The notes under the pieces were generated by a model. The model had not been told where the DNA came from, made no database searches, and was given only the letters and a program-made list of their open reading frames with translations. 32,734 nt of DNA. It comes from a virus. The position numbers and the translations under genes were made by a program. Location: the IMG/VR virus record IMGVR_UViG_3300037574_000223, positions 1 through 32,734 of that record. One strand, written 5' to 3'. Positions 3-19,931 of this stretch are shown piece after piece (position 1 is the first letter of the stretch; every line of letters starts with the position of its first letter).

Positions 3-413
3 ATTACATACTCAACAACAGATGTCACAGGCTGCACTGTAAGGACGGGGGCGTTGTCCAAGTTGCTCGGGGCAGCGTCAGGTAAATTTTTCAAGGAAGG
101 TTACAAGGGGGCTGACGGCAAGACTGCAAAACACCACGGCCCGAATGCCTTTGGCTCACCCGGGATGGGCGGGTTCGTTTGGGACGGCCTTAGGCCGTAT
201 GGGGCTGCGTCAGCAACGACCGTTGCAGAGCAGGGAGACGGAGTTACCCGGCCCGGTGTCTCGTTTGATTTAAACGCCCCGGGCAGCGGAGGGTCAGGGT
301 CAAAAGGAAGCTCGGTTGAGACAGACTCCAAGAACTGTATAGGTGGGCACGCGATGGCAGGCTGTGCGTGGGTTACCTATGCGCCAACTGCGAACGCCTA
401 CGACAAGTTCTAA
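3..413 (+). CDS. 3' end of an unidentified, probably virion-associated gene (partial)
   Basis: The frame is open from the left edge of the window to a TAA at 411-413, so only the last 136 codons are seen and the start lies outside. A TTG at 54 could serve as a start, but the codons before it read through cleanly, so truncation is more likely. The visible part is rich in Gly, Ala, Ser and Thr, with a Gly/Ser run near codon 115 and four cysteines. I do not recognise the family. The TAA overlaps the ATG of the next gene (TAATG), so the two are probably translationally coupled. Position next to structural-type genes suggests a virion protein; that is inference only. Confidence 0.6.
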   Translation: MTYSTTDVTGCTVRTGALSKLLGAASGKFFKEGYKGADGKTAKHHGPNAFGSPGMGGFVWDGLRPYGAASATTVAEQGDGVTRPGVSFDLNAPGSGGSGSKGSSVETDSKNCIGGHAMAGCAWVTYAPTANAYDKF

Positions 414-2404: not shown

Positions 2405-2840
2405 CGATGAGGACGGGGAAAGAGTAGACGCTTTACTCGCCAAGGCTAAAACTAGTGTCCTAACACCTGATGAACTGAAGGAGGTTATATGGATTCTTGC
2501 ACCTGTAACCGACTCGCCTGCGTTCTATCACGATGGTGAACAGTTTTATTTTGACCAAATATCTGGAGAGTTGTACTCAACTAGAGACGGTGAAAGGCTT
2601 TACGTCGGGCTTATACCTGACACACTGTCCTCACTGCTTGGCGGCAAGGGAGGCAACCGAGGTGGTGGCTTGTTTGCTAGGCTCGCCCCAAGATCGAGAA
2701 GCCTGAACATTCCCTTGCCTCCGTTCCCGAAGATACCGCCAAACGTAAAGGCAAAGTTCCCTGAGCTAACAGAAAGCTGGAACAAGTGGGAAAAATCCGT
2801 GGAGCAGTGGGTGCAGTATGTTCAACAACAGCTTTCCTAG
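2382..2840 (+). CDS. Hypothetical 152-aa virion-cluster protein
   Basis: The ATG lies 23 bases inside the end of the upstream gene, and there is no clear Shine-Dalgarno site, so translation probably depends on coupling. The N-terminal third is charged. The centre (about residues 90-100) is very Gly-rich, followed by a Pro-rich stretch (residues 109-121) and a C-terminal amphipathic helix with several Trp and Gln residues (about 128-152). The next gene ends in a similar Pro-containing segment plus a short helix ending Q-L, which may mean the two C-termini bind the same partner. The family is not recognised. Conserved position between tail-type genes suggests a minor structural or assembly role. 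Confidence 0.55.
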   Translation: MPKLKRRSDEDGERVDALLAKAKTSVLTPDELKEVIWILAPVTDSPAFYHDGEQFYFDQISGELYSTRDGERLYVGLIPDTLSSLLGGKGGNRGGGLFARLAPRSRSLNIPLPPFPKIPPNVKAKFPELTESWNKWEKSVEQWVQYVQQQLS

Positions 2841-3443
2841 ATGCCATATACCCCACAGGAAGACGAACTGATCACCTATATGGAGACAGGGTTGGGCTCT
2901 TCTTCGCCACTTGTAGCCACCCGCTTCAGGGAACTCAGGCTCACGGGGTGGACAGAAAAGGATGAGAGATCGGTGACTCCACCCCTTGGGAGTGACTGGA
3001 CTTCTGTGTGGATTGGGCAATACCCGGGCAATGTTGTTGGCCACTGGCAGGCGATGGCTGCCCTGACGTTTTCCCTGAGGCGACCCCTTGAAGAGGATGT
3101 TCGCGTGGTGGGGTTATGGTGGAGCGAGTACAAGGACGGGGATTACTACACATATTATGATGGAGACAGGAGGTACTCACATGCTATCTACCTAGACCCG
3201 TCCGAGGTAATTGGAGAAACCCCTAATATACTCAGGCTTGGAGGAACAAAAAGCTCCCAAGGGTTATCAGCCGACCTGACGGTTGAGGTTACAAAACCGA
3301 GGCACATTCCGCTGTTCCCACAATGGGACGATAAAATACTAAAGCGTTTCTATAGGTCAGATGACCCGGAGATGCGTAGCTACACCAAAGCGGTGGATGA
3401 TTGGTCGGCGTTAATGAACAATGCCATTAGCCAATTGGCCTAA
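2841..3443 (+). CDS. Hypothetical 200-aa virion-cluster protein
   Basis: The start ATG follows directly on the TAG of the upstream gene, with no gap and no Shine-Dalgarno site. The protein is rich in aromatics (many Trp and Tyr), for example WWSEYKDGDYYTYYDGDRRY at about residues 93-112, and looks mainly beta-structured up to residue 155. The last 45 residues contain a Pro-rich piece and a helix resembling the end of the preceding protein. No enzymatic motif is visible. The family is not recognised. A receptor-, tail- or portal-associated accessory role would fit the context but cannot be shown from sequence. Confidence 0.55.
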   Translation: MPYTPQEDELITYMETGLGSSSPLVATRFRELRLTGWTEKDERSVTPPLGSDWTSVWIGQYPGNVVGHWQAMAALTFSLRRPLEEDVRVVGLWWSEYKDGDYYTYYDGDRRYSHAIYLDPSEVIGETPNILRLGGTKSSQGLSADLTVEVTKPRHIPLFPQWDDKILKRFYRSDDPEMRSYTKAVDDWSALMNNAISQLA

Positions 3444-3474: not shown

Positions 3475-4446
3475 ATGCCTGTATTTGACAGACTAAAAGA
3501 AAACAAACGAACCAGCCTCGGTCTACCTGTTCACTCATACCCACAGGCAGGCGGCTTTGGGCTCCCATTTTCAACTGCGACTGGACAGAACTCTCCCGCC
3601 CAAGAGGTTAAAAACCCCTATCAAGTATTGGAGAACACCCGTTCGGGTGAGCTTGCCGACAGGATCAAGAGCATCCTTGGGTCTGCTGACAAGCAGCAGA
3701 AGCAGGCAGATAAGGCGATAGGTAAATATGAGTCCGCTTTAAAAAACGCCCCCAATAAGGGGTTCGCTGATCAGGAGAGCAACTACCTGTCTAGGTTTTT
3801 TGATTCTCGCGCCCAGAGTGACATGGAGGGGATGCGTACACGGCAGGCTGAGGCCCTCAGGAGAGCAGGCGATCTGGCACGGGGAAACCTTAGGCGCGAT
3901 CTAAAGGCATCAGGGTTCGCAAGGGGAGGGGGAAGCTCCAGTCGGCTGGATCGAATGGCTTTGGATCGCAACCAAGCAATTGAATCAGACATAGCCAACC
4001 GCATGTCGGCGGCAGAGCGAGGCGATTATGATTACCTCAACCGAATGCGTGGCGCAGCCCTCGGGCAGCGTGGCTCCATGTACGACAGGCTCGCTGGCAG
4101 GGAACTGCTTCCATTACAGGCGAGGCAGCAGCAACTCCAGTCACAAATGGGATTGCTCGGCAACGTGGGCCAGCATCAGCGTGCCAACTCGGTTTACCAT
4201 TTGGCCGAGAGCCCCGAGTACGCGCAGCAACGAGAATATCAAGCGATGCTCGCGCAGCAGGGCATGGCCCCCATGAATATACCCGGGACTAACTACTCAA
4301 TGGACATGGCTCAGACCGAGCCGTTTGCAAGATTCCCGAAGGCTCCGTTTACGGGCTACGGGGTTAACCCGATGAACAATCTTTACGGCTACCAGTATGC
4401 TGCCCCACAATACTCATCATACCCTAACGTTTTGCGACAAATATAA
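3475..4446 (+). CDS. Helix-rich internal-virion / ejection-like protein, 323 aa
   Basis: The ATG at 3475 is preceded by AGGTG about five bases upstream, one of the few Shine-Dalgarno-like sites in the left block, after a 31-base gap. Residues about 60-225 are strongly helical and coiled-coil-like, rich in Ala, Arg, Gln, Asp and Met with almost no Cys. The C-terminal 80 residues are Pro, Tyr, Met and Asn-rich and probably disordered. This composition and the position just before an even longer helix-rich gene and a giant gene resemble the ejection-protein cassettes of short-tailed phages (P22 gp7/gp20/gp16, T7 gp14/15/16). That comparison is by architecture, not by recognised homology. It ends in TAATG with the next gene. 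Confidence 0.5.
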   Translation: MPVFDRLKENKRTSLGLPVHSYPQAGGFGLPFSTATGQNSPAQEVKNPYQVLENTRSGELADRIKSILGSADKQQKQADKAIGKYESALKNAPNKGFADQESNYLSRFFDSRAQSDMEGMRTRQAEALRRAGDLARGNLRRDLKASGFARGGGSSSRLDRMALDRNQAIESDIANRMSAAERGDYDYLNRMRGAALGQRGSMYDRLAGRELLPLQARQQQLQSQMGLLGNVGQHQRANSVYHLAESPEYAQQREYQAMLAQQGMAPMNIPGTNYSMDMAQTEPFARFPKAPFTGYGVNPMNNLYGYQYAAPQYSSYPNVLRQI

Positions 4447-6539
4447 TGGCTTATCTTACAATAGACGAACAACTGAGGCGTTCCGCGTATAAGCGTCCGT
4501 GGATGAAGAACTACCGAGGCGGTATAGGCCGAGGTGGCTCTGCCGAGCAGGAAAGATTGGCTGGTTTAATGGCAGGGAAAACAACCTACCTTGACCCGGC
4601 TGCTCCGCGCCCATCCGTGGACTACTTCTCAGAGAGCACTCCCGGAGTAAAGTACCAATCGTTTGAGGAGGCTCTTGCCGTTGGCAAGGAGGCCAGAGAG
4701 GTGCAGGACATGGAGGATTACAGACGCTTCACCACTGCAACCGGGCTTCCAGAAACCAAGGAGGGCTACGTTGGTTACCGCAAGGAGAAGGGAGCGCAAC
4801 GTGAGGTTGAAAAGCAGAAGGCAGAAAAGAACGCTGCCATAGCTCGGCAGATGTTTGAAAAAGACCGGGCCTTCCGTGCGTCGAGGATAGACAGGGCGAT
4901 GGCAAACCGACAAGAGGCAGCCAAGGTGGCAAACTATAGGCAGCGAACTGAAGCAAGTTCACGAGATCGAGAGTTGGCCCGTCAGGCAACAGCGTCAGGC
5001 ACAAGGCGCACATCACAGCGGACAGCCAAGGATGATTTTCTTAAACAGTTTCACGAGAACATAGCCAAGGGTTACATCCCCGAGGGGGAGATTCCGATGC
5101 ACTTAAAAGGCATGGGCATAAATCCCGGTGACCTTGATTACTATCAAGCAATGGGTGCGGGTGGGGCTTACGCTGAGGGCGTTCAGGATAAGGACATTGA
5201 AAGCAGAATTAAGGCAGTCAGAGATATTATAGAAGCTGGCGACCTAAGGCCGCTGAACAGGATAGACACGACAGATATTCCATACAACTCGCAGGAAACC
5301 CTCCATTCCGAAATACAAACAGCACGGTCAAATATTATAACTGAGAGAGAACAGGCTAAGTCTCTTAGGGCTGCTTGGGATGAAGAGAAAAAAGATCATG
5401 CGGGCCAAGGTCTTGACGCAAGCGACAAAGAGCTTGAGTTCAGCAATTTTATCAGGGCCAACGGAGCTAGTGCTGTCATGCGCGGTTCCTACGATCACCC
5501 CGTGTTCGTCGAGCACGCAGAAGGCATAGAAGGTAAGTCGCTTGAAGAGGTCAGCCCGTTCTCACCGTGGATCAGCCCAATGGCAGACTCGGGAGTCGAT
5601 CAGAGCGGCTTCCTAACCTCTCCCGCCCGAGTCAATGATTCCTATGATGTGGACTTACCCCCCGGTTCGATAGCAGAAGAAGTTTGGGGGCCCGTAGTAG
5701 CAGAGGAGTGGGAGGACGCCCCGATCCCCGAGGGCGTTCCCCTCAGTGAAGCTGAGGCGGCAAAGAGAGCAGCAGCCGAAGCCGATTATCAGGCAGCGAT
5801 GGAAGATGCGCGGATTCGACGAGAGAACCCGCACGTTGAGGGTTATGTAAAATCTTTACAAGAGGTTCCAAATAAATTTAGTGAGGCTCTGGTTGGAGCA
5901 TGGAAGCAAGCTAAGGAGAGATACGAAGACCACGCATTCGAGAAGGCAAAAGAGGAGGCCGAGATGGCCGAAGCACTGGCCTATGAAAGAGACTGGGAAG
6001 CTAACGCTGCTAAAGAAGTGGATGCTGTTCCTCCGAAGTTCGTTGGCAAGAATACCATGTTTACAGACCCGACTGGCGTGACGGATTTCGGGTCACTGGC
6101 AAGGGGTTCGTCCGTTGAAAGACCTTGGTATGGCGACATGGGTTCCATGCCCGGGCAGGTTGCTTCCCTCGCACCCGAGATGATCAACGCAGCGGGTCAG
6201 ATGCTCAATGTGTTTCCTAGTATTTTAGGGGTGGGTTCAGGTGACCACTATGAGGGGCCGCTTCCAACTACTCGCACGAAGACAGTTGAAACCCCCATGT
6301 TGTCCCCGCTTGAGTACACGGGGGGCAAGAAGCCTGTAGTGTCAGTTGAATACGCTAACCGTGAACTGCTCCCGAGGTATCTCGACGCCTTAAAAAAAGC
6401 GAGGGCCAAGGACGGCAGGGGATTAGACGTTAACGAGGAGGATGCTTTAAGGCGATACGCAATGGCTCAACTTTTAGAAAACTACGAGCTACCAAAGAAT
6501 TATCAACACTACAGCCAAACTCCACTTGGTTTTAATTAA
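4446..6539 (+). CDS. Long charged coiled-coil internal-virion-like protein, 697 aa
   Basis: Starts at the ATG of a TAATG overlap with the upstream gene and has no separate ribosome-binding site. Residues about 85-200 form a highly charged, Arg/Lys/Glu/Ala-rich predicted coiled coil, and a second such region lies at about 430-530. Between them are acidic and Pro-containing segments. A short hydrophobic stretch near residues 555-590 could touch membrane. No catalytic motif is visible. With the neighbours on both sides it forms a three-gene set (323, 697 and 4176 aa) that fits proteins packaged in the head and ejected with the DNA. Function is inferred from order and composition. Confidence 0.5.
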   Translation: MAYLTIDEQLRRSAYKRPWMKNYRGGIGRGGSAEQERLAGLMAGKTTYLDPAAPRPSVDYFSESTPGVKYQSFEEALAVGKEAREVQDMEDYRRFTTATGLPETKEGYVGYRKEKGAQREVEKQKAEKNAAIARQMFEKDRAFRASRIDRAMANRQEAAKVANYRQRTEASSRDRELARQATASGTRRTSQRTAKDDFLKQFHENIAKGYIPEGEIPMHLKGMGINPGDLDYYQAMGAGGAYAEGVQDKDIESRIKAVRDIIEAGDLRPLNRIDTTDIPYNSQETLHSEIQTARSNIITEREQAKSLRAAWDEEKKDHAGQGLDASDKELEFSNFIRANGASAVMRGSYDHPVFVEHAEGIEGKSLEEVSPFSPWISPMADSGVDQSGFLTSPARVNDSYDVDLPPGSIAEEVWGPVVAEEWEDAPIPEGVPLSEAEAAKRAAAEADYQAAMEDARIRRENPHVEGYVKSLQEVPNKFSEALVGAWKQAKERYEDHAFEKAKEEAEMAEALAYERDWEANAAKEVDAVPPKFVGKNTMFTDPTGVTDFGSLARGSSVERPWYGDMGSMPGQVASLAPEMINAAGQMLNVFPSILGVGSGDHYEGPLPTTRTKTVETPMLSPLEYTGGKKPVVSVEYANRELLPRYLDALKKARAKDGRGLDVNEEDALRRYAMAQLLENYELPKNYQHYSQTPLGFN

Positions 6540-6541
6540 AC

Positions 6542-9500
6542 ATGCCATACAGTTCAATTCCAGCATTACGCACGCTAGGAGGGATCAGTAGTGCGTACAA
6601 GAGGGCGATAAAAGGCCCGTCACCTGTATTAAGAGATAGACTACCTGATGGCTTCGATACGTTTGAGGAGTACGACACCTACCTAAAAGGGTTAAGGGAT
6701 TACGAGGAGGAAAAACGTCGCCTCGACCAGCGCGTCATTGATGACCCTGAATACCGAAAACTGTTATCCGAACAGTACGGGGCTATCACGGAAATGACTG
6801 AGGACTCTCCTGCAACAGTTGCACTAAATGTAAGGGAAGGCATCTTGGGTGCACCGGGGGCACTAAAGAAAACAGGGCAAGAAATTGTTGAACTTGGTGC
6901 TGAAATATTCGGAGCGAGTGATGAGTTCAAAGAGGGGGCGCGTCTAGCCAGAGAAGAGGTATCCAAGGAGGTTGAAGAAGAGAAAGCCGATGCCCTAAGG
7001 GGGACAGGCGGTGGCGGCGGGAGCGAGTTCGCTTACGAGCTCGGCCAAGCGGGGGCTACTGAGCTTCCGTTCATGGCGGCATCAGGCGGCTCGGCTGCGG
7101 CGATAAAGCTGGCGGCTCGGAGGGGCTTAAAGAAAACAATAACCAAGCGTGTCGGAGAGGAGGCGGCAGAAGGTGTGCTTAAACACAGCTTGGGGAAGAA
7201 GCTCATTGAGGACAAGTTGGATAAGATCACAACCAGCGCGGCTATGGGCGTGATGACGGGGGTTCACACACCCAGAAGCGCATCAGGTGGGTGGACTCAG
7301 GCTGTCGAGCACCTGCACCCACAGTACGTCAAGGCGTTGCAGGCCCAGAACCGTGACAACCAGTGGTCGCCAGAGGAGATCGACAAGATGGCCTACGAGC
7401 AGGCGCGTGAAAGCGCGGTTGCCCCTGCTATCGCCAGCGGCGTTATCACGGGAGCATTGATCACAGCGTTTGGGGCTACAGGTGTGGAGCGGATGTTTGC
7501 CAACCCGAAAGTGTTTAAGCCTGCGCTCCGGGACTTGGCTGAACAGTTTGGATTTGAGGCTACTGAGGAAGGGCTTGACCAGTATATGCAGGGGGTGATG
7601 GAGAAATATTCCTACAACCCTGACAAGCCCTTTGAGGAGATCATGTCGGAAACGTGGCACGCTATGATTCTGGGCGGTCTGATTGGCGCGAAGATGTCGG
7701 CCCCCTCCATAGCTATAGGCAAGCTCAGGGAGCAAAGGGGTGAATACGAGAGCCTTGACCAAAGGTGGGCGGCGTGGATGGACGAGCGGCGTGGCAACCA
7801 CCCCAAGGACAAGGCAGGTCTTCGTAAATGGGTTGAGGATCACACCCCGGCTACAGGTGAACAAGCCGAGGAAATCATCGAGCTTCTTTCTGCCGTTGAC
7901 CAGATGAAGCGCATTCTCGCGTTGCAGGCTGAAGGGGCCACAAAGGAGGAGGCCGAGTCTGAGGCGATAGAAGAGCAGAAGGTATCTGAAGAGGAGCTTA
8001 ACGAACTTGAGGATCAAGGGCACGACACCGCTGACCAACGAAAGAAGAATGAGGGCCTCGCGACATTCAGGTCACGTGGTGTTGCCTCGGGAGAGGCAGA
8101 GAATGAGAACGCTCTCGACGAGGCAGAGAAAATAGAGGCTGAAGAAGGGATCGAGGCGGCAGAGGAATACATAGAGGGCTTCAACTCTGTTGCTGAGCAG
8201 AATGAGATGAACCAGTCCGTGTCGCTGGACGCAGTTGAGCAGAAGGTGAGCAAAGGCGAACAACTGGACGAGGGAGACTTGGAGATGATCACCTTCGCCG
8301 CTGATCTAATTAAGACAGCCCCGCAGACAAATTTAGGACGGAAACTTTATAAGACACTGGACAGTATTGGCCGCAAGATAAGCGGTGGACAGTACGACAC
8401 TGCCAGCGAACAGCGTGTACGAAGTGAATTGTCCGACCTGCCACAGGATTTCTACGACACATTCCCTGAGGCTCCAGCCGATGCGCCAGCCTCGGACTAC
8501 GACGAGTTCGGAACATTTCAAGGCTCTCAGGTCGAGCAACCCGTCGAGGGTGGGGAAGCCTTCGATGAGCTCGGTGTCTTTCAGGGTGCAGAAACAGTAG
8601 CTGAGGAGGAGTCCACAGTTATTGAGCAGGCCGAAAGGGAGTCAGAAATGGGCGTAACAAATGAAACGCTCGCGCAGAAGCTGTATGACATAAAGGAAAG
8701 AATATATACAGCAGGCGAAGATTTAAGCGACCTTACCGTGGGGGACATGGTTGCTGCTGCCAAACGTTTCTGGACTGTCGCAAAGGATGGCCGCCGTCAG
8801 TCTTATAAAACGCCAGCCGGGGTAGACAAAGCTGTGCTTGGTGAGGCGATAACGCAAAAAGTCGATGGACATGAGTTACTTGTTGAAAGGGCGTATGAAA
8901 TACTTGTTAGAGACAATCCAGAGCTAGGAAGAATTGCACTTAACCCAGAGCAGACGGGCTCGATGAGGTGGGGGCAGAAGGAGGACATTGTTCTGGGAGC
9001 CCTGTCTGACTACCCCGTAGCGGATATTGAATATTTCACCTCTGCTGAAAGAATAGAGGAGTATAATAAACAGGGAGAGCGTGACCCCAAGATTGACCAA
9101 GGCATTGGGCGCGTCATAGCCCCGGAGGCAAGAGAAAGGCTGGATTGGACAAGGCGACCAGCGTGGGCTCCAGCCGACACCCTTCCTGAGGAAGACCCCG
9201 ACCAAGGAGACTTCGTTGGCTTGATGACCACCAAGCTCGATGACGCCACCGATACGGATGAGCTTACCGACACGGCCTTGGATTTGTTTGACCCAAGCCG
9301 ACCACCGGGTGTTGAGCCTGAGGCTGTCCCTGCACCCGAGCAGACACCGATCCCGTGGGAGGGGGCCGAGTATGATGCAGAGGAAGGCGGCTTTGTTCCG
9401 ACTAGCGGCACATCACCAGTGGTCAGCCTTGATGGGCGAATGATAACCATCGTCGATGTCAATGGGGTGAAGGTTCCCTTCTACCTGTCCACTGGCAGGG

Positions 9501-12500
9501 CTGGTAAGAGGGACGTAATTGCCGGGAAGTGGTATCCATTTTTCGGCATCGGCAACGACGGCTGGCTAAACAAGGGGAGCCAGTCAGAGATAAACAGTTA
9601 CTATAATAGCCCCACCTTGAGAGGGGCGGCACAGCGGTTGGATGATTCCATTGGTGATGTAAGGAAAGACCCCAATGTCCCAGTTGCCACAAAGAAACGA
9701 AAGGGAGGTCAACTGGTAAGCCCGTCCATTGAATTTATAAACGAAACCGTTGGCCTTCCCGGGTTAACCCACGACGAGGTGACAAGTAACAAGGCTGGGT
9801 TGGATTCCAACATAGCGGAGGTCATCGCACAGTTTGAGGGCCGAAGAGAGGTTGCTGTCCCGGGTGAGTTGGGTATTCCAGCACTGGCCCCGGGCGAAGA
9901 ACGTGGGCGCGTTGAGCTTCCTGAAGTTGTCCCTGAGCCGCAGCAGGATTTACAGGAGGGTGAGGAAGCAGAGGTTGATCTGGGCGCACCACGGGTGGAG
10001 TACGAGAACCCGGATGACAACACGTTTGTGATCAGCATCGACCGTGGGGCAAGGGCTCCAAGAAGACATTACAACTCGGTAGAACAATTTTATGCTGAGC
10101 CTGAGTCACACATCGGGGTGGTCTACCACTCGGCAGGCAGAGCAGATGTTATCGTTAAGCACAACGGCAAGACGGGTGACATAAACCTTGGCTACATTGA
10201 TGAGATTGGACGGTTTCGGCCCACTCATAAACTGAAACACTATGCCAAGGTGAAGAAGGGCTTTGGTCGTAACCCCGGAGCCACGAAATCGGGGACAACT
10301 CACCGTGGTTGGATCATCCCGAAGAACGTGGTGTCAGGGAAATCTCTTACAGACGAGAACATCTGGGAGCCGCTGCCCGGAACGTCCACCTATAACAGGT
10401 TTCTGAAGGCCAAGCACGCCGGGATGGGTGAAACCCGGATGATCAATCTCGTGATCAGCGAGATGAAGAATGTTGCCAAGCCTGCGTTGTCCCAGATGAT
10501 GCGCCAATTACAGGACGTCGGCGCACTGGGCATGGAGTCCGTATCCGCCACCATATTGGCAGCCAATAACTACCGAACAAAAGGGAAAGTTTACCCGCGC
10601 ACACTGGTGGAGAATGGCAACGTCAAGCGGCTGGCAAAAGAATTTGAGAAGGCTCTTACAATTCTCTCTAAGGCGGATCGCTTCTACGCCGTGATGCGCG
10701 ACGAGTCCGTTGGGTTTGACATGCAGGGCACAAGCGAGGAGGCTGAACTAGCAAGGGAACAAGCCGCATCTCGTCAGGCTGCGCTGTTGAACTTGCTCCA
10801 CGCCAATCTTGCCCCACCAACCAAACTCACCTTTAGAGATTTCAAGGTATGGGACGTGGGTAGACAACCCGGAACGCGAACGGTCGCAGAGTTTCCCAAC
10901 ACTAACCGGGGAGCCGTTGCGGGTTACAGGGCAGCGTCGAAGCAGGCGAACAAAAGGAAGAAGTCGCCAAGGGAACTTGTCCTTGCCCCGATTGTTACCG
11001 AGGTGGACTCAAAAACCAAGGGAGAGCTTCACGAGTTAAGGGTCGAAGAGGGTTACAAGCGGTACGGGCTTGAGGTTAGAGATGCGGATCGCATACCTCT
11101 GGACAAGTTGATTTCTGCACTCAAGGAGATTTACCCCGGCAAGAAATTTGAGATTGAGATACGACCACTCAAGTCGGACACGGAAACCTCGGTTCACGAA
11201 GCCAAGGCTGGGCTTCAGGGCACGCGCAAAAAAATAGATGGGCGTTCCGTGCATGTCACCCCGGGAGGTGTGATACCAATGCGTGACCCGGCTACCGGGG
11301 ACACGGTGATGGGTAGCCCCGACGTGATTGCCAAAGCTCCTCGTCGGCAGGTGAATAGGGCAACACTTGATATTAGTGGGCCTGAGGCTGCTCTTGATCC
11401 TGAGTTTGTTGACATGGTTCGGGCCATTGTGAAGTCGCTGAGCAACGAGGCCAAGAAGGCTCCGATTGATGAGAAGTACAACAAGGTACACAACAAGGAG
11501 CTAAAGCTGGAGGCGGCGAAGGCGAAGAGAGCGTTCATCAACAAGGCAAAAGAGGAGATAAAGAAGAAACTGCTCCATAAGCAAGGCCCCCTAGCAGGGA
11601 AAAGGCTACGGGAAGACGACGAGATGCCGCCGCCGTTGACCACGGCAGAGGCTAAGACACTCAAGGTCGGCCTAACAAAGAACGACAAGGCGATACTAGC
11701 CAAGGGGTCAGTCGTTAGCGAATGGTGGAATAAAATAATGAAGCCTTCGAGTCTGATCAAAAAGGGGTCAGCCGTGGTGAGCAGGCTATACGATGAAGGT
11801 CAAACGAGAGATTGGCAACCCGAGCTTGTCCCCTTTAGATCAGTAACCCCATCCGACCCGAAGCCAAAGTTTAGAACCGAAGAGTATGAGCGCGGCCAAC
11901 TGCCGAGCGACGTAATCGAGTACAGGGTTGGAGGCAGGAAGGTTTTTGTAGCTCAAGCCATAGACCCAGTAACAGGGGAGAAACTCAAGGAGTTCGAGTA
12001 CATGCTGGAGCGGGTTGACAATACCCCGGTAGCACTCCCGGCTGCCAAGAACATGAGGCAAGCCAAGAACGCCGTGGCTGATCTCATTAACATGGAGAAC
12101 AGTTCCCTTAACCTTGCCGCCGTTGGCAAGCTAATGGCCAGACTGCGCGACCTGAAGGGACAGGAGACACAGCAGGCCGTCGGGCTTGAGGCACTGGACA
12201 CAGCGAAAAAGATTTCAAGGGCTAGGAGATCACCGCTTACCGAGGACGGAGTCGAGGAGGATGCCAAGGAGGGCGCGGCTTTCGTTGAGGACGCACCGCT
12301 TACCGAGGAAGAGCTTGAGAAGCGTGCAATCGTTCGCTTCCGGGATAAGCCTCCCACATCCGATCCGATGCCACCGAAGAACCCTCTGTTAAAGAAGCAG
12401 ACAGAGGGCGCACCCCAGCGCAAGAAGATTGGCAAGCGCAACTACGAACAGACACCAACCGGGAAGTGGGTTTATGTGCCTGTCAGGTTTGAACATAACA

Positions 12501-15500
12501 ACGACTGGAGAACCAGCCACGACCTGTACCCTGTAGAGAAGATAGACGGCAAGTGGAACGAGATGAGGCCATCGAAGCCCATTGAGTTGAGCCGGGAACA
12601 GCAAGACCCTAACCTTCTTAACGTTGAGTCAGAGCAGACAACCAAGCAGCTTGAGAACCTTGAGGGCTGGCTAGATAAAACGCCTGCCGAGGCAACCGAG
12701 AAGGAGAAGGTTGACGCTGCTAAATTCTCCGACATCCCGGCGACGGATGACACAACAGAATTTAACATTGAGCTTACCGATGGTCAGTTCAGCCTAGTTA
12801 AAGGGATCGTTGAGTCGCACGGGGGAATCAAAGGGTTCCTGAATCATATTGAGAGTGCGATTGAAGGCAATGAGGAGCATGGCGGGTTGATGTTTACCTT
12901 GCTGAAGAAGTTCGTTGAGGAAAATAGGAAAGGGAGACAGAAGGTAATAAATGATCTAAGGGAAAGGGCGCAAAAGATCACTGAGGTAACTGGCCCGTTT
13001 ACCGAGGGGCAGAACAAGGCGGCTCTGGAAGAGAGGCTAAGGCTACTCAGGGAGGCAGATTTCATTGAGAGACAGGGGCCGTCCGACTTCAAGCGTAGCT
13101 TGAATAAACACGGCAAGAACGCCCTTCGCAGGTGGGCCAAGTGGGTTAGCCCGAACGAGTGGATGGCGGTGATGGAGTATGCCGAGGAGATTTACAGGCA
13201 CGTCACACCGAACAAGAAGCTGAGGGCGAAGTCAAAGAAGGCTGAGAAGATCGCCCTTCAGGTTCCGTCTGACATACCTGTAGCCAAGGGAGCGGTAGCT
13301 CTCAAGGAGTTGGTCAGTAGAAGCGACAACGGGTTAAGCCCGGAGGAGCGCATCACCACCATGCGCCTGTTGGACTCCATTGCCCCTGAGTTATTGGAGA
13401 AACTCTCTCTGAAGATAGGGGCTGAGTTAAATTCCGATGGCGACACCGAGGTGGAATACCTTGGTGAGTTCAACTCGCTACAGAACCTGATCACCCTTGC
13501 CGGGGACTCAAGTACCGACCCGGATGCGCTGCTTGAGGAGATCGCCCACTTCACGGCGAAGCTGCTGCCAGACGACCTGAGGCAACAGGCGGTCAAGCTG
13601 CACACCAAGGCGGTGGACAAGGCTATAACCAAGGCTGAGAACGAAATAAAAACAGCGACGGGTGATGATCGGCTTGCGTTGTCCAGCAAGCTGGGCGTCC
13701 TGAGAACCATCAAGGAACGGGGTCAGTTAACCAGTAACGAGTTCAGGGGTATCCTACCCAAGTCAGCAGAGGTTGGGGCAGATGTCTTTGATTCAATCAT
13801 CAAGGACACATACCACCTCTCCAATGCGGACGAGTTTTACGCCAACGCAATGGTCACCCGTGTGGGTGACTCCGAGTTTGGGCGGGCACGTCAGTTCCTT
13901 AATAACATACTTGATGCCATCAAGGCTGTCTTCGGGAACGCCAACGCACAGGTAAATCAATTTATAGGTAGAGCCAAGAAGTCTCTGGCTGATCCGAACA
14001 AGGCCAACAAGAATATGCGCGGCATGCTCATGCGGGAGAACGTGATCGCCAAGAGCCTCAAGACTCTAGTGACACCCAGCAAGCTCGCAGGCTCAGTGGC
14101 TACATCAATGCTACAGGCTGAAGGCGCATCCGAACTTGGTCAGCACGAGGAGGCAGCCAAGATGCGGCAGACGGCAGATGACAGAGTGTCCCAAGCGGGG
14201 GCTGTGGTCAGCGTCTACGAGTCCGTCCTGAGAAGGGTTCTCCCCGGGTTGCACCCGCACAGCGATGTGGCAAAGTATCTTAAAGCGAACGACATGGATT
14301 ACATCCTGTCAATGCTGGACGGGTTGCCCACTAGCTCTGACTACAAGCAGACATACAATAGGTTTATTGAGGAGGGCCGACCCGAGCTTGCTCAAACAAC
14401 CGCACTGTATGCCTTCCATTATATCAGGCAGATGGAGGTTCAGGCTGAACAACTTAGAGAGAGGGCTGACCAAGCGAAAGCAGAGGTAAGCAGCGATGTG
14501 TTCATTAACCGCGTCAAGCGGGCGGCGAAGAAAGAGAAATCCGTGGAGGCTGACCTTGAGAACGGGATAAGAGCTTCGCTTGAGATGGCCAGAACTCTTC
14601 TCGGAAAGAGCACTGACCCGGGGAGCAGGGCCAACGCTCTAACGAAAACCGTGGGCCTTGAGGAAATCAACACCGCATTAGCTGAGGTGGCTGCATTGGC
14701 TGAGGCTACAAAGAAACTAGCAAACATTCTCAGTGCAACACCTGAGGGGCTGGAACTGTTCAACCGTCCAGACATACGCGAAGCAGCCGAAGCAACCGAG
14801 GGCGACAGCAAGGACTACATGACAGGCGAGGAGATCGCCAAGCTGGCGGGGGAGGTTTACAACTACGTAACCCGACTCGGCGTAAACAAGAAGGACGAGA
14901 ACATGTGGAGGATCGCGTCCACCTTGTTTGTCGCAAACAACGGACTCAGGAAGAACGCTGTGATTCTGTCGATGCCCTTCTTTGAGGCCAAGGCAGCGGG
15001 TGAGCGACGTGTTGCCGAGTTGTTTAAGGTTCTAAGCTCCACTGACAAGGATGTCAGGATGAAGAAGCTCGACGAGCTTTTCACGGAGGTGATTGACTTG
15101 TCCTCTAAACAGGGACGAGAGAGGTATGTGGCCAAGCAGATGATGGCCAGCGTAAATACTGACCTTCAAAGGGCTGCCGATCTTGACCGTGCAGCCACGG
15201 CTGCCGAGAAAGTAATGGCTGACCCTGAGTTTTTGGAGTACCGCCAAATGGTTGGCGAACAGGCCGCCGTGGATGACGTTCCCAGCGGGGCAAGAAAACT
15301 TCACAAGGGGGAAAAAGGGGAAGTTGTAGTAACCGGGCAGCCAACGTTCTACGAAGATTTGGTCAACAACACACTCTATATTCCCAAGCCGCCAGACAAG
15401 CATGGCCCCGACAAGAAGAACAACGTTGTAAAGATACAGTTCTTTTCTGGGCAGCCGGGGATCGAGAACCTCAAGCTGGCTCACGAGGCGGCGGTGAACA

Positions 15501-18500
15501 TCCATAACTGGTTGATGGCCAACATGGACAATGAAACCGGGAAGCCGACCAGCCCTCATTGGAACTACTACTGGAACACTCTCCAGCAGTTGCAGGCCAC
15601 CTACACACACGAGTTGGTTTGGAATCTTCCAACAAACCAGAGAACGATAATGAGGGACACGTTCATGGGTGTGATGAAACATCTCGTTCACAACACTCCA
15701 ACCCGAGCGGCCCAGTTGGCGAAACGGTACATCGACAAGCATGAGATGTACTACACGTTTTTCGATCAATGGAAGGACAAGAGAAAAGCGAAGTGGACAA
15801 ACCTCTTGATCCGGGCAGCGAAGTCGCGCCCCGGGGAGTTTGCCAACGATACCGTTTTTAAAATAAAAGAAAGCAAGGAGCACCAAAAAACTGTCGGCAT
15901 AGCCAAGTGGGAGAAGAGGGTGGGCCGATACCTTCGGGACTCTTGGCAGGAAGGCGGCATGCGCTACGACGTGGGTGAGTTTATGCCCAACGGGGAACAG
16001 GTTACCAAGGAGGACATGGAGCTCATAAGGTATGAGTCAGAGATCACTGAGCAGGTATATGAATTTAACAGAAGGATAGCGGAGAAGGATGAAAGCGCAC
16101 AGCCACTAAGGGTAACCGACATCCTCAACATCAGGCGGCTCCCGATGAAGCGCGGCCCAATGATGATGCCAAGGAGGTTCAGCCGGGATGGCCGTGATCT
16201 TGTTAAAGCCTATGCGAAAGCAAAGGAGAGGTTTGTCGGTGCAGCCCTGTACAACGAAATCTTTACCGGGTCTGACGGGGAGCAGGCTATTATTTCGTTC
16301 CTGTCCGACCGCGACCCAGAATGGGTAACCTCCACTGGGGTGGACGGCAGCGGGTGGGACGATGTTTACGGAGTGATAACCGCCGAGATAAGGGACGGCT
16401 CCATGAAGGAGTTAGGCTACTCAACCGACCCAAGCGGGGTGGCGCAAAGGCTGTCTGACTTAACGGGAGTTCCTGTTCCAGAAGTAAAGGAGCAGTTGAT
16501 CAAGGAGCTCGACCCAGTGATGGACAATCTCTTCGGGATGCAGAATCCCAGCGGGACAGTGGACTCACCCACCTTAAAGATTCAGTCCCTCGATGCCCCG
16601 ACATCCCTGACGGAGGCCAGACTGGACAAGGTTGCACCGAGTTTTTTCTACACATTAGGTTTCAACAACGACCCAGACTTTCAGGCGTTTGTGGCTCAAG
16701 GCCAGATGCCAGCAGCCCTGAATGTTATCAAAGCATTGAAGTCAACCATCGTGGAGATGGAGGGGACAATGGCTGAACTCGGTAAAAAGTTTGAAGACAA
16801 ACAGAGGGAGTTGGGCAAGGGTAAACTTTCTAAAGAGGTGCAGAACGCTGTTGCCGAGGAACTAGGCATCGAGTTGAGAGGCCCCGCCTCACTGGAGGTG
16901 CTGCTTGAAGACAGGATCGAGATACTGAGAAAGTACACCTCGGACTTTGAAGGCTTGTACGGGACTACCGGGGAGACGAGCGCATACGCAATTGAAGATG
17001 TGCCCAAGGTCTACCAGCGGGCCTACGGTGCAACCATTGGGGGGCTCTTGGTTTCCCCCCTTGTCGCCCTGCGAAACAACACGGAGTCTGCGCTTCACGG
17101 CGCGATAACGATGAACCAGTTAACGGGGCAAACAGGGGCTGTCAACTTTGCTTACACGCTCATACGGATGTTGATGACCAATGTTATCAAAATGGGTGGC
17201 TCGTTCATCCTGTCCACAGGCAAGGTAGCCCTGTACAAGTTACCAGTTATCGGTACGTGGAAAATGGCCCAGAGGTTGACGGGGATGGACGGCCACCCGC
17301 GTCGGATTGCAGGGGCAATAGTGGCACTGCTTGCCCCGTCCGTTCAGGAGTACGCCGAGGTGATGCCAAGAAGGCTAAGGGAGCACAAAATTCTTGATGA
17401 TCAGAACCTCGGCATGGCAACCACTCCAGAGGAGACAGCGTTAAACTTTGCTGAGTTTATGGAGACGGGCGGCAGGGTTATGAGGCCAGAGGAAACGCAG
17501 AGAACCTCTACCAGTACGTGGGGTATTGTGGCGTTAGTTAAACGCTTGTTTATGAACGGGCTCGGGCAGGCTGAACAGGGGTTGGCTGTTCTTGGTAGGC
17601 CCCTGCTACAACGACTTGGTGATGTCAACGCCAACAACCTTCTGGCTAACCTAGCCCAGAACGTTGGGCACACATGGCAGCGCAAGGCAAAGGTGGCTTA
17701 CGCCAGACGGATCAAGACAGGGTCAGACCTTGGCGCACCCGCCAGCCTTGAAGAGGTGGCTGGAAATTACCTTGGAATTTTTAAGGCGAACAAGCTGAGC
17801 GTAGGGGAGGTAAGAGAGTTCTTTGCAGCTTCGGGTGTTCCAAACTTTGAAGCAGCAATCGAGGATTACTGGCGCAGGCTCGACGCCGCACCAAATAAGA
17901 AGGCACAGAAACAGGAGAAACTCTTCTCACAGGAGCAATTGGATCGCATGGCGGCTGTCATGGTGATGCAGAACAACACGGCGACCCCCCATAACCGACC
18001 GATGTGGATGAAAAAGAGCCGTGTGATGAACATGTTCTTTGCCTTGATGGGCTGGTCGTTTAACCAGAGCCAGAACTGGGTGAAGATGACTCACAAGACA
18101 TCCAGCACCAGCGAAAAGGACAAAAACCTACTCCGATTGCAGAAGGCGATAATGATCGCAGGTGCTATTGGGTTTCAAATCCCCATGAATGCCCTGCTTG
18201 AGATGCTCTCACGGAGTGTAGTCGAGGGGATGTACGGGCAGAAGAGGATCACGCGGCTGCCGTGGGAGACAACCGGGGGAACCGACGAAGCCTATGCGTG
18301 GTTGAGTTTGGGAAGCCAGTCCATCCCGCTGATCGGTTCAAGCATAAACGCATTGTGGCTGGACGCTCCCGGCAGGCCGCAACACATGCCGGGAAACCTC
18401 ATTATCAAGCAGTCGATGGCTCTCATTAACATTGGCACGGGCATCATGGACACGCGCAACTTGGAACATAGTATGATCAATGGCATTAACCAGTTACTGC

Positions 18501-19072
18501 CAATCAGTCGTACAGTAACCTACAGAATAAGCGAGTGGCAGCAGGATAAGACTAAGAACGACAATGCGTTCAGAAGGCTCCGCGCCATTTACGGTGATCC
18601 CAAGATGCGGAAGGGCATCATTGCCGGGACAATGCTTGGGGGCAAAAAGTTCAGCGAGTTCACTCCATACAGAGAATATTTTGCAGCCGCTGTTGCGGGG
18701 AACAAGTGGAAGAAGGCCAAGAAACTGTATGATGAGGCCATAATTGTTTATAGGCACGTCAGGGAGACATCGACAGGGAAGCGACCCAGCTACGCGGCTG
18801 CCGAACAGGCGGTCAGGTCTTCATTTGGGGCCATGAACCCCGTGTCCCGTGCGCTGAGGATTAAGCCGACAAGTAAGCAGTTTTATGAAAACATCTCTCA
18901 CGCTACTGAGTCCGACCACAAGGCCATCACCGCCTCGGTCGATAGCTGGAAGGAGGCTTATGCTAAGTTTCAACTCGGAAGGTCTTTCTGGGCTATGCCG
19001 TCAGAAGGGAGAGGCCGTCCGTCTCGCTCAAGGTGGAGGCAGTCATCCGGGCCGAAGGCGGTGGTGAGATAA
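6542..19072 (+). CDS. Giant 4176-aa polyvalent-type virion protein
   Basis: A single uninterrupted frame of 12.5 kb starts two bases after the upstream stop, without a Shine-Dalgarno site. Visible layout: charged N-terminus; Gly/Ala and hydrophobic segments at about 60-240 and 290-319; a segment around 331-382 with the FGFEATEEGLDQY pattern followed by a hydrophobic Gly-rich stretch; long acidic linkers (about 450-730) with two copies of a D-E-[FL]-G-x-F-Q-G motif; a compact aromatic/Gly block near 965-1040 (VPFYLSTG, WYPFFGIG); long charged helical regions; a metallopeptidase-like region with E-E-I-A-H at 2332-2336 and ADEFYA at 2429-2434; and a C-terminal region from about 3500 with hydrophobic segments near 3537-3575 and 3865-3895. 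This fits large 'polyvalent' phage proteins delivered into the host with DNA (Iyer/Aravind description), including the LPD38-like C-terminal type. The domain names are my reading, not a search result. The last 26 residues overlap the integrase gene. Confidence 0.75.
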   Translation: MPYSSIPALRTLGGISSAYKRAIKGPSPVLRDRLPDGFDTFEEYDTYLKGLRDYEEEKRRLDQRVIDDPEYRKLLSEQYGAITEMTEDSPATVALNVREGILGAPGALKKTGQEIVELGAEIFGASDEFKEGARLAREEVSKEVEEEKADALRGTGGGGGSEFAYELGQAGATELPFMAASGGSAAAIKLAARRGLKKTITKRVGEEAAEGVLKHSLGKKLIEDKLDKITTSAAMGVMTGVHTPRSASGGWTQAVEHLHPQYVKALQAQNRDNQWSPEEIDKMAYEQARESAVAPAIASGVITGALITAFGATGVERMFANPKVFKPALRDLAEQFGFEATEEGLDQYMQGVMEKYSYNPDKPFEEIMSETWHAMILGGLIGAKMSAPSIAIGKLREQRGEYESLDQRWAAWMDERRGNHPKDKAGLRKWVEDHTPATGEQAEEIIELLSAVDQMKRILALQAEGATKEEAESEAIEEQKVSEEELNELEDQGHDTADQRKKNEGLATFRSRGVASGEAENENALDEAEKIEAEEGIEAAEEYIEGFNSVAEQNEMNQSVSLDAVEQKVSKGEQLDEGDLEMITFAADLIKTAPQTNLGRKLYKTLDSIGRKISGGQYDTASEQRVRSELSDLPQDFYDTFPEAPADAPASDYDEFGTFQGSQVEQPVEGGEAFDELGVFQGAETVAEEESTVIEQAERESEMGVTNETLAQKLYDIKERIYTAGEDLSDLTVGDMVAAAKRFWTVAKDGRRQSYKTPAGVDKAVLGEAITQKVDGHELLVERAYEILVRDNPELGRIALNPEQTGSMRWGQKEDIVLGALSDYPVADIEYFTSAERIEEYNKQGERDPKIDQGIGRVIAPEARERLDWTRRPAWAPADTLPEEDPDQGDFVGLMTTKLDDATDTDELTDTALDLFDPSRPPGVEPEAVPAPEQTPIPWEGAEYDAEEGGFVPTSGTSPVVSLDGRMITIVDVNGVKVPFYLSTGRAGKRDVIAGKWYPFFGIGNDGWLNKGSQSEINSYYNSPTLRGAAQRLDDSIGDVRKDPNVPVATKKRKGGQLVSPSIEFINETVGLPGLTHDEVTSNKAGLDSNIAEVIAQFEGRREVAVPGELGIPALAPGEERGRVELPEVVPEPQQDLQEGEEAEVDLGAPRVEYENPDDNTFVISIDRGARAPRRHYNSVEQFYAEPESHIGVVYHSAGRADVIVKHNGKTGDINLGYIDEIGRFRPTHKLKHYAKVKKGFGRNPGATKSGTTHRGWIIPKNVVSGKSLTDENIWEPLPGTSTYNRFLKAKHAGMGETRMINLVISEMKNVAKPALSQMMRQLQDVGALGMESVSATILAANNYRTKGKVYPRTLVENGNVKRLAKEFEKALTILSKADRFYAVMRDESVGFDMQGTSEEAELAREQAASRQAALLNLLHANLAPPTKLTFRDFKVWDVGRQPGTRTVAEFPNTNRGAVAGYRAASKQANKRKKSPRELVLAPIVTEVDSKTKGELHELRVEEGYKRYGLEVRDADRIPLDKLISALKEIYPGKKFEIEIRPLKSDTETSVHEAKAGLQGTRKKIDGRSVHVTPGGVIPMRDPATGDTVMGSPDVIAKAPRRQVNRATLDISGPEAALDPEFVDMVRAIVKSLSNEAKKAPIDEKYNKVHNKELKLEAAKAKRAFINKAKEEIKKKLLHKQGPLAGKRLREDDEMPPPLTTAEAKTLKVGLTKNDKAILAKGSVVSEWWNKIMKPSSLIKKGSAVVSRLYDEGQTRDWQPELVPFRSVTPSDPKPKFRTEEYERGQLPSDVIEYRVGGRKVFVAQAIDPVTGEKLKEFEYMLERVDNTPVALPAAKNMRQAKNAVADLINMENSSLNLAAVGKLMARLRDLKGQETQQAVGLEALDTAKKISRARRSPLTEDGVEEDAKEGAAFVEDAPLTEEELEKRAIVRFRDKPPTSDPMPPKNPLLKKQTEGAPQRKKIGKRNYEQTPTGKWVYVPVRFEHNNDWRTSHDLYPVEKIDGKWNEMRPSKPIELSREQQDPNLLNVESEQTTKQLENLEGWLDKTPAEATEKEKVDAAKFSDIPATDDTTEFNIELTDGQFSLVKGIVESHGGIKGFLNHIESAIEGNEEHGGLMFTLLKKFVEENRKGRQKVINDLRERAQKITEVTGPFTEGQNKAALEERLRLLREADFIERQGPSDFKRSLNKHGKNALRRWAKWVSPNEWMAVMEYAEEIYRHVTPNKKLRAKSKKAEKIALQVPSDIPVAKGAVALKELVSRSDNGLSPEERITTMRLLDSIAPELLEKLSLKIGAELNSDGDTEVEYLGEFNSLQNLITLAGDSSTDPDALLEEIAHFTAKLLPDDLRQQAVKLHTKAVDKAITKAENEIKTATGDDRLALSSKLGVLRTIKERGQLTSNEFRGILPKSAEVGADVFDSIIKDTYHLSNADEFYANAMVTRVGDSEFGRARQFLNNILDAIKAVFGNANAQVNQFIGRAKKSLADPNKANKNMRGMLMRENVIAKSLKTLVTPSKLAGSVATSMLQAEGASELGQHEEAAKMRQTADDRVSQAGAVVSVYESVLRRVLPGLHPHSDVAKYLKANDMDYILSMLDGLPTSSDYKQTYNRFIEEGRPELAQTTALYAFHYIRQMEVQAEQLRERADQAKAEVSSDVFINRVKRAAKKEKSVEADLENGIRASLEMARTLLGKSTDPGSRANALTKTVGLEEINTALAEVAALAEATKKLANILSATPEGLELFNRPDIREAAEATEGDSKDYMTGEEIAKLAGEVYNYVTRLGVNKKDENMWRIASTLFVANNGLRKNAVILSMPFFEAKAAGERRVAELFKVLSSTDKDVRMKKLDELFTEVIDLSSKQGRERYVAKQMMASVNTDLQRAADLDRAATAAEKVMADPEFLEYRQMVGEQAAVDDVPSGARKLHKGEKGEVVVTGQPTFYEDLVNNTLYIPKPPDKHGPDKKNNVVKIQFFSGQPGIENLKLAHEAAVNIHNWLMANMDNETGKPTSPHWNYYWNTLQQLQATYTHELVWNLPTNQRTIMRDTFMGVMKHLVHNTPTRAAQLAKRYIDKHEMYYTFFDQWKDKRKAKWTNLLIRAAKSRPGEFANDTVFKIKESKEHQKTVGIAKWEKRVGRYLRDSWQEGGMRYDVGEFMPNGEQVTKEDMELIRYESEITEQVYEFNRRIAEKDESAQPLRVTDILNIRRLPMKRGPMMMPRRFSRDGRDLVKAYAKAKERFVGAALYNEIFTGSDGEQAIISFLSDRDPEWVTSTGVDGSGWDDVYGVITAEIRDGSMKELGYSTDPSGVAQRLSDLTGVPVPEVKEQLIKELDPVMDNLFGMQNPSGTVDSPTLKIQSLDAPTSLTEARLDKVAPSFFYTLGFNNDPDFQAFVAQGQMPAALNVIKALKSTIVEMEGTMAELGKKFEDKQRELGKGKLSKEVQNAVAEELGIELRGPASLEVLLEDRIEILRKYTSDFEGLYGTTGETSAYAIEDVPKVYQRAYGATIGGLLVSPLVALRNNTESALHGAITMNQLTGQTGAVNFAYTLIRMLMTNVIKMGGSFILSTGKVALYKLPVIGTWKMAQRLTGMDGHPRRIAGAIVALLAPSVQEYAEVMPRRLREHKILDDQNLGMATTPEETALNFAEFMETGGRVMRPEETQRTSTSTWGIVALVKRLFMNGLGQAEQGLAVLGRPLLQRLGDVNANNLLANLAQNVGHTWQRKAKVAYARRIKTGSDLGAPASLEEVAGNYLGIFKANKLSVGEVREFFAASGVPNFEAAIEDYWRRLDAAPNKKAQKQEKLFSQEQLDRMAAVMVMQNNTATPHNRPMWMKKSRVMNMFFALMGWSFNQSQNWVKMTHKTSSTSEKDKNLLRLQKAIMIAGAIGFQIPMNALLEMLSRSVVEGMYGQKRITRLPWETTGGTDEAYAWLSLGSQSIPLIGSSINALWLDAPGRPQHMPGNLIIKQSMALINIGTGIMDTRNLEHSMINGINQLLPISRTVTYRISEWQQDKTKNDNAFRRLRAIYGDPKMRKGIIAGTMLGGKKFSEFTPYREYFAAAVAGNKWKKAKKLYDEAIIVYRHVRETSTGKRPSYAAAEQAVRSSFGAMNPVSRALRIKPTSKQFYENISHATESDHKAITASVDSWKEAYAKFQLGRSFWAMPSEGRGRPSRSRWRQSSGPKAVVR
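8501..8587 (+). repeat. Two-copy motif inside the giant protein's acidic linker
   Basis: The giant protein carries D-E-F-G-T-F-Q-G at residues 654-661 and D-E-L-G-V-F-Q-G at 675-682, exactly 21 residues apart and joined by an acidic Val/Glu/Gly linker. Sequence of this kind in a disordered acidic region is typical of short linear binding motifs. The partner is unknown. Confidence 0.6.
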
Positions 19073-19931
19073 CCGAGCCCCCCGTCTTCAGCTTGGAAAG
19101 TTCCTTCTCGTCCGTATCAAGATAACGCTGGAGCATGGCGGTGCTAGACCAGCCTATGATCTCAACGATACTCGTCAGAGCTATCCCCATTTTGATCATG
19201 TTGGTTGCCGCCCCGTGCCTGAGACAGTGGAAGGTCATCTGATCTGGTATGCCCGCCCCCCTGACAATCGCTTTGAACTCACTGGAGAGGGTGTTACTGT
19301 GGTAACGCTCGGCAGCTAACGAGAAGTAGTGATCATTGCTGACATCCAGAGGCAGCAGAGCCTTGGCCAGATCGTCGTGTAACGGGAGCTCGATTTCCCT
19401 GCGGCTCTGCTTCTGCGGCATGAAGATGAATTTGCTTCGCTTCCAATCGATTGTGGAGGAGAACTCAGCACAGTCCTGCAACCTCATCCCGTAGTGCCAG
19501 CCGAGTAGGATCATGGGATACCAGTAGGCGCGAGATTCGTCGGCCCCCGATGAGACAACCAATTGTTTCACCTCATCCTCGGTGAACCCCCTTACGTGTG
19601 CCGCCTCAGGGGGTAGCTTGGGTATCAGCTTGGCGGGGTTCTTGATGAAGTAATCCATCTGGATGCCCCACTCGAAGAACGACCTCAGCCGTGCGACGTA
19701 GGTGTTAATGGTTATTCCCTTAACTCTAACCCCCTTGAGGGGAGCACGCAGGTTGCCAACCCACTTGTTGGCTGATGCTGGCTCAAGCGGGGCAAGCTGA
19801 CGGTCGTAGCAGAAGTGTGCGTAAAGTTCCAGCGTCTCCCTGTACACACGAATGGTGTTATCGGCAGCCGTTACCGCCTTCCAGTCGCAGAACTCATGGA
19901 TCAGCGACGGCAGGGTTCTTGTCTTTTTCAT
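18993..19931 (-). CDS. int: Tyrosine recombinase / phage integrase
   Basis: A 312-aa site-specific recombinase of the tyrosine family, which would join phage and host DNA by strand exchange at att sites. Residues 1-100 form the SAM-like core-binding domain. The catalytic set is complete: Arg150 (in GMRLQD), probable Lys174, His235-x-x-Arg238 (HCLRHG), Trp261 in the place where most relatives have His (IIGWSS), and nucleophile Tyr270 (QRYLD). It is the last gene of the replication operon and starts at the ATG of an ATGA overlap with the HTH gene upstream. About 26 C-terminal residues after the catalytic core are encoded in the 80-base convergent overlap with the giant gene. Its presence suggests temperate capability, though some lytic phages keep such genes. 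No att site was identified. Confidence 0.93.
   Translation of the reverse strand: MKKTRTLPSLIHEFCDWKAVTAADNTIRVYRETLELYAHFCYDRQLAPLEPASANKWVGNLRAPLKGVRVKGITINTYVARLRSFFEWGIQMDYFIKNPAKLIPKLPPEAAHVRGFTEDEVKQLVVSSGADESRAYWYPMILLGWHYGMRLQDCAEFSSTIDWKRSKFIFMPQKQSRREIELPLHDDLAKALLPLDVSNDHYFSLAAERYHSNTLSSEFKAIVRGAGIPDQMTFHCLRHGAATNMIKMGIALTSIVEIIGWSSTAMLQRYLDTDEKELSKLKTGGSVISPPPSARMTASTLSETDGLSLLTA

Follow-up and report, generated by a model that had tools for sequence, protein, structure and literature searches.

A giant phage frame encoding a probable ejection protein, with a predicted modular chassis and a domain found in unrelated phages

Injection into the host has been predicted for phage polyvalent proteins, whose genes stand among those for virion proteins; MPTases have been proposed to process them, and variable inserts have been noted between the two MPTase helices (Iyer et al. 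2017, PMC5512222). Giant virion proteins are also known from podoviruses. The DarB-like giants JC1 gp69 and Bcep22 gp75 come from podoviruses with an integrase, and gp69 (4515 aa), encoded at the end of the virion module, was identified by 51 unique peptides in CsCl-purified virions (PMC9144972). The N4-type virion RNA polymerase (vRNAP) of Schitoviridae, about 3,500 aa long, is ejected with two other proteins and holds a zincin-type MPTase (PMC12633501). In P22 and T7, gp16 is the last and largest of a helix-rich set behind a tail-completion gene and has hydrophobic segments (PMC8954989). Lastly, the T4 internal proteins (IPI and others) are diverse counter-defence proteins that have only a capsid-targeting sequence in common (PMC3012670).

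Here we analyze a giant frame in a linear IMG/VR virus record of 32,734 bp, taken whole (the window). No end repeats are listed for the record, so it may be a fragment. The phage group to which the window and its relatives belong is known from metagenomes alone, and we found no published work on this giant-protein lineage in the literature searched. The genes that concern us are as follows.

368..2404, plus strand: virion structural/phage stabilization (P22 gp10-like) protein, phrog_3287 (PHROG E 1.2e-24)
2382..3443, plus strand: two small conserved genes between the structural gene and the ejection-type genes (comparison of related contigs)
3475..4446, plus strand: 323-aa helix-rich gene, conserved in 11 related contigs
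4446..6539, plus strand: 697-aa helix-rich gene, fast-evolving (comparison of related contigs)
6542..19072, plus strand: giant ORF of 4176 aa, ejection/polyvalent-type, with an ATG start, one terminal stop and none internal
18993..19931, minus strand: tyrosine integrase (Pfam E 2.8e-19), convergent with the giant and overlapping its 3' end by 80 bp

An earlier note, made from this DNA alone, had described a single uninterrupted frame of 4176 residues taking up 38% of the window behind two helix-rich genes, and our analysis agrees on each point. When the window was resampled 40 times with a first-order Markov model, no open frame exceeded 300 codons, against about 4178 observed. An orthologous frame is uninterrupted, and in an equivalent position, in each of nine related phage contigs (3732, 4414, 3166, 3164, 4853, 3581, 3829, 3591 and 3477 aa; range 3164-4853 aa), with 24-46% identity to the window protein. 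The note had also raised the prospect that the frame would map to several separate proteins or prove to be a sequencing artefact; at the DNA level, the intact frame in nine orthologues contradicts both. The giant frame is therefore one real protein-coding gene.

The giant is encoded among late/virion genes. A scan with the upstream structural gene gave 15 related viral contigs, and the order structural-C-D-E-F-giant-integrase is seen in all that have enough sequence, with C and D small, E of ~320 aa, F of ~600-800 aa and the integrase again convergent behind the giant. In the window, the giant starts 2 nt past the end of the second helix-rich gene. Besides its PHROG match, the structural gene product matches a "phage stabilization protein" of MW202710 (tblastn E 4e-5). 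P22-type phages keep their ejection genes downstream of the phage-stabilization region, and by analogy with P22 gene order the giant would be the last gene of a putative ejection set behind a tail-completion gene, the podoviral ejection position. Neither the helix-rich genes E and F nor the giant has a PHROG or Pfam match to a known ejection family. None of six gene starts checked (368, 2382, 2841, 3475, 4446 and 6542) has a clear Shine-Dalgarno (SD) motif, which may reflect a host with SD-poor initiation. In two related contigs, G029 (L089) and G022 (L092), the head/packaging genes upstream of the structural gene have no head-family match in PHROG (L089) or Pfam (L092), and among the genes of the structural operon are one for a calcineurin-like phosphoesterase (E 1.4e-11) and one for a VWA-domain protein (E 3.8e-9). 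A further giant frame of G029 (L090:6844-14652; 2602 aa) lies beside a tail-fibre-like gene, and its C-terminus matches PHROGs of unknown function.

How does the giant compare with the podoviral precedents? Like the JC1 and Bcep22 proteins (about 4,500 aa), it ends the virion module of a phage with an integrase. The methylase-helicase, LT and LPD38 domains, by contrast, are theirs, and phage tblastn finds no sequence similarity between them and the window protein. By analogy, JC1 gp69, proven in virions, is the nearest such precedent for the packaging of a giant of this kind. The N4-type vRNAP is of similar scale; its T7-like RNAP module was not found in the window protein. The giant shares its position in the gene set with P22 gp16 and T7 gp16, yet it is 3 to 7 times larger, with no detectable sequence relationship to them and no transglycosylase domain. 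The earlier note had called the protein far longer than usual ejection proteins; its size is as stated, but JC1 gp69 and the N4 vRNAP are podoviral precedents for it.

Comparison of the ten orthologues divides the giant into conserved regions and variable sites (all on the plus strand).

6632..8215: N-terminal region conserved among orthologues, aa 31-558; its Gly-rich hydrophobic helices include aa 292-310 (BLAST, hydropathy)
8216..9931: acidic variable cargo site 1, aa 559-1130 (BLAST/alignment of orthologues)
9350..9766: "block" domain, ~110 aa, within aa ~937-1075 (viral and cellular loci, alignments, AF2)
9932..10696: second conserved region, aa 1131-1385 (BLAST/alignment)
13253..13981: zincin (MPTase)-like domain, aa 2238-2480, with a degenerate metal motif (hhalign; AF2 pLDDT 88.8)
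13535..13549: EEIAH motif, aa 2332-2336 (HEIAH in orthologue L086)
13745..13777: cargo site 2, aa ~2402-2412, empty in the window protein (ART-like inserts in L084-L088)
13829..13843: DEFYA glutamate-helix motif, aa 2430-2434 (invariant D2430, E2431, Y2433 and A2434)
15239..19021: conserved C-terminal core, aa 2900-4160 (1261 residues; mean column identity 45% over 10 orthologues)

BLAST matches the N-terminal region in each of the nine orthologues, over aa ~100-390 for the most distant one, and residues E174, P176, H242, R245, E339, E342, E343 and D346 are invariant. Cargo site 1 holds the block in the window protein and L081 only; other orthologues are short or different there. These patterns are best explained if the N-terminal region and C-terminal core form a chassis that carries cargo at two variable sites. 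An acidic linker seen earlier by eye is real (net charge -13.6 per 100 aa over aa 400-950). The reported hydrophobic segments reduce to aa 292-310, the sole stretch of the window protein above Kyte-Doolittle 1.5; those placed in the C-terminal region do not reach this value in the window protein, although orthologues do at 0.90-0.93 of their length.

Searches of the window protein with Pfam, PHROG and NCBIfam gave no domain above threshold, so the "several activities" proposed in the note are seen mainly in relatives. Two candidates were rejected. The first is a C-terminal LPD38: when LPD38 regions of five giants were compared by hhalign with the C-terminus of the window protein, the scores did not rise above noise. 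The second is a Pfam match to MMS19_C at aa 2746-2864, which scores 20.2 bits where the cut-off is 32.9, is helix-rich and was judged to be chance. For C-terminal pieces, single-sequence scans found nothing, whereas a profile scan did find relatives. Of 57 pattern matches to the C-terminal core in 84,980 cellular genomes, 0 were confirmed; thus, although an integrase adjoins the giant in relatives, no prophage with this core was confirmed in that set.

The cargo at site 1 recurs in very different phages. The earlier note had pointed to an aromatic/Gly block near residues 965-1040, which we find to be a conserved domain at about 937-1075. Its motif is VPFYxS(T/S)GxGGK..V..GKWYPFFGI...GW.NK...YYGS..L...A..LD..IGD.R, and the VPFY.S.G..K and KWYPFFG...W.NK cores are both present in the window. 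Sixteen columns are invariant in 29 sequences (R12, P25, Y27, S29, G31, K35, W43, Y44, P45, F47, G48, W54, N56, K57, Y67 and L79). A scan with aa 955-1076 found the block at 50 viral loci, and it occurs at 7 loci from cellular genome records, in giants of about 1,900-4,700 aa and in stand-alone proteins of 180-320 aa. It has no Pfam or PHROG family of its own; the sole PHROG match is to profile phrog_32390 (1957 positions), and there only to its C-terminal part. The clearest of the cellular loci encodes a 3479-aa protein of Stenotrophomonas (L111) in which the block accompanies InPase, LPD5, LPD1, ART-PolyVal, MuF_C and LPD39. This places the block among polyvalent domains, and it is also found in other giants bearing LPD38, ART-PolyVal or SLT. 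In Cellulophaga phage phi4:1, the block lies near the C-terminus of gp038 (1957 aa), a protein detected in virions by MS/MS and annotated from that proteomics. The block alone is common to gp038 and the window giant; likewise, phi4:1, the Stenotrophomonas protein and T4-like phages have the block and not the chassis.

Stand-alone block proteins suggest another delivery route. Gp23 and Peptidase_S77 both exceed their cut-offs in two of their contigs, and Gp23 was found in two others. The proteins start MKHLKTYKIFES, MRVHEIISEG or MRAKEFLSEG (MK..Y..F.E-type leaders), and unrelated neighbour genes share such leaders (MKSYKEFVLENKTE, MKHLKTYKIFESSEED), against a background of 1/155 genes in other phages. 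Because the leader regex was derived from the block proteins, the evidence is confined to the non-block neighbours with a leader and the 1/155 background. We take these leaders to resemble the T4 capsid-targeting sequence, and treat the resemblance as a lead. In this respect the stand-alone proteins of T4-like contigs are similar to T4 internal proteins, while the giant itself has no such leader.

The AlphaFold model of the block is predicted with confidence (pLDDT 88.6, pTM 0.84), and against the PDB it has no match above chance (Foldseek best E 0.93; VIA best Z 2.7 for 1i2h, 83 aligned, rmsd 4.5). Its BFVD matches are other phage proteins with the block, including phi4:1 and phi14:2 structural proteins. 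The block may possibly adopt a new fold, a suggestion from modelling for which an absent PDB match does not establish novelty. We propose that the block probably serves as an effector aimed at the host or as a counter-defence factor.

Another predicted domain resembles the peptidases of polyvalent proteins. The orthologues share (E/H)EIAH..TA(K/R)..LP and N(A/P/T)DE(F/Y)YA within a zincin-like region conserved over about aa 2160-2480, and block-bearing giants of other phages have HExxH and a downstream EEF(I/V)A-type motif, equally arranged. An hhalign comparison of the domain with the MPTases of these giants gave probabilities of 78% and 95% in the two directions (0.5% for the reversed control) and put both motifs in register, with DE(F/Y)YA aligned to EEF(I/V)A. 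The window protein has EEIAH and so lacks the HExxH metal/catalytic motif; the first His is Glu in 9/10 aligned members and in a distant relative (L108), and HEIAH is found in L086 only. The model of the core is confident, with two strands predicted before the motif helix, and has no match above chance in the PDB (Foldseek best E 0.05; VIA best Z 6.5, on helical rows and uninformative). Judging from these motifs, the EExxH domain may be a processing peptidase that has decayed or become altered. The two motifs flank cargo site 2. No insert occupies this site in the window protein, L080 or L082/L083 and almost none in L081, whereas L084-L088 have inserts of several hundred or more residues. ART-PolyVal matches occur in 5/10 members, those of L084 and L086 scoring 23-26 bits, below the Pfam cut-off of 31.2, and L084 has a DUF7178 match above cut-off. 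After the ART-like segment of L084:884-15382 (4833 aa) comes a stretch that resembles, by eye, a SAM-dependent methyltransferase (LDVGASEGALN...).

Taken together, the giant combines the block, the zincin-like domain (both predicted) and a conserved chassis in a single polypeptide. Like polyvalent proteins, it would be a giant multidomain chain encoded among late virion genes, with a block and a zincin-like domain, and its relatives add ART-PolyVal and DUF7178. Unlike them, the window lineage has a distinct chassis, its zincin motif is degenerate and every named Pfam polyvalent domain is below threshold in the window protein, where no LPD, ART or MPTase family exceeds its cut-off (such families are common, not strictly required, in polyvalent proteins).

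Based on these data, we consider it likely that the product of the frame is a giant ejection protein of the polyvalent type, packaged in virions. The virion role with several injected activities suggested earlier is supported as the best reading by the gene order, by the block shared with polyvalent and MS/MS-detected virion proteins, and by the ART-like cargo of five orthologues. In this model, the giant would be a late product, expressed along with the structural genes, and would enter the head together with the two helix-rich proteins encoded before it. It would exit on infection, with or before the DNA, the C-terminal core and hydrophobic N-terminal region serving as a delivery chassis across the envelope. 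Modules at the variable sites would then act in the host within the first minutes, before phage gene expression. In the window phage the visible module would be the block; the second site, in the zincin-like domain, is empty here, whereas several relatives have ART-like inserts in it.

Other readings have to be weighed against an injected protein. Conservation is highest in the N-terminal region and C-terminal core, no intact enzyme is visible in the window member and HExxH is degenerate in nearly all members, all of which would suit a structural chassis only, that is, an outsized part of the inner core or tail, needed for assembly or for the passage of DNA, whose block and zincin remnant are inert, with no host activity. 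We regard this as unlikely, since the block is present in 2/10 orthologues yet spread between unrelated phages and leader-bearing stand-alone proteins, and orthologues carry ART-like cargo at the splice site. It is also improbable that the frame yields several separate proteins, by internal starts or proteolysis, instead of acting as one chain. Many polyvalent proteins contain an MPTase that is presumed to cleave them, P1 DdrB is processed (PMC5512222) and L086 retains an intact HEIAH; against this, ten orthologous frames have no stop, HExxH is lost in most members, and virions do contain giant chains in the cases of the N4 vRNAP and JC1 gp69. The frame has nine internal SD-like ATG/GTG sites, which carry little weight because a clear SD is absent from both the giant and the genes upstream of it.

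An N4-type vRNAP diverged beyond recognition would fit the size and the late position in a structural operon, and the block-bearing giant L005 matches a PHROG "virion RNA polymerase" profile. This sole hint turned out to span a metallopeptidase segment only (LLHEYLHA...EEFIATFF). The earlier note saw no RNA-polymerase motif, and we too find no RNAP match for the window protein among PHROG, Pfam or NCBIfam profiles or PDB chains; we therefore reject this identity as very improbable. For a sequencing or assembly artefact we found no supporting point, and nine independent contigs with uninterrupted frames make it negligible.

Going beyond ejection itself, we lean somewhat towards a broader proposal, in which the block is an undescribed effector domain, possibly of new fold, delivered by unrelated phages through giant ejection/polyvalent proteins, Cellulophaga virion proteins and T4-like leader-tagged internal proteins, with the giant as a chassis that has two insertion sites, one of them within a self-processing peptidase domain that has decayed. 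Polyvalent proteins and giant virion proteins of podoviruses were known before; new, as far as we searched, are a lineage with a comparable chassis, two cargo sites and a conserved EExxH, and the block domain together with its spread over delivery routes. If the proposal is true, this is a lineage of giant injected proteins in which chassis and cargo are separable by orthologue comparison, and the block is a small, well-predicted domain common to very different phages and probably active in the first minutes of infection. The block is suited to separate expression and host-target testing, which turns a vague "giant ejection protein" into a defined question, with the block and its target as the part of interest. 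Two further block proteins are of unusual composition: a 3686-aa giant (L043:7436-18493) has two block copies about 220 residues apart, and a 2008-aa protein of Endozoicomonas ascidiicola (L115:5547-11570) combines a divergent block with a protein kinase domain.
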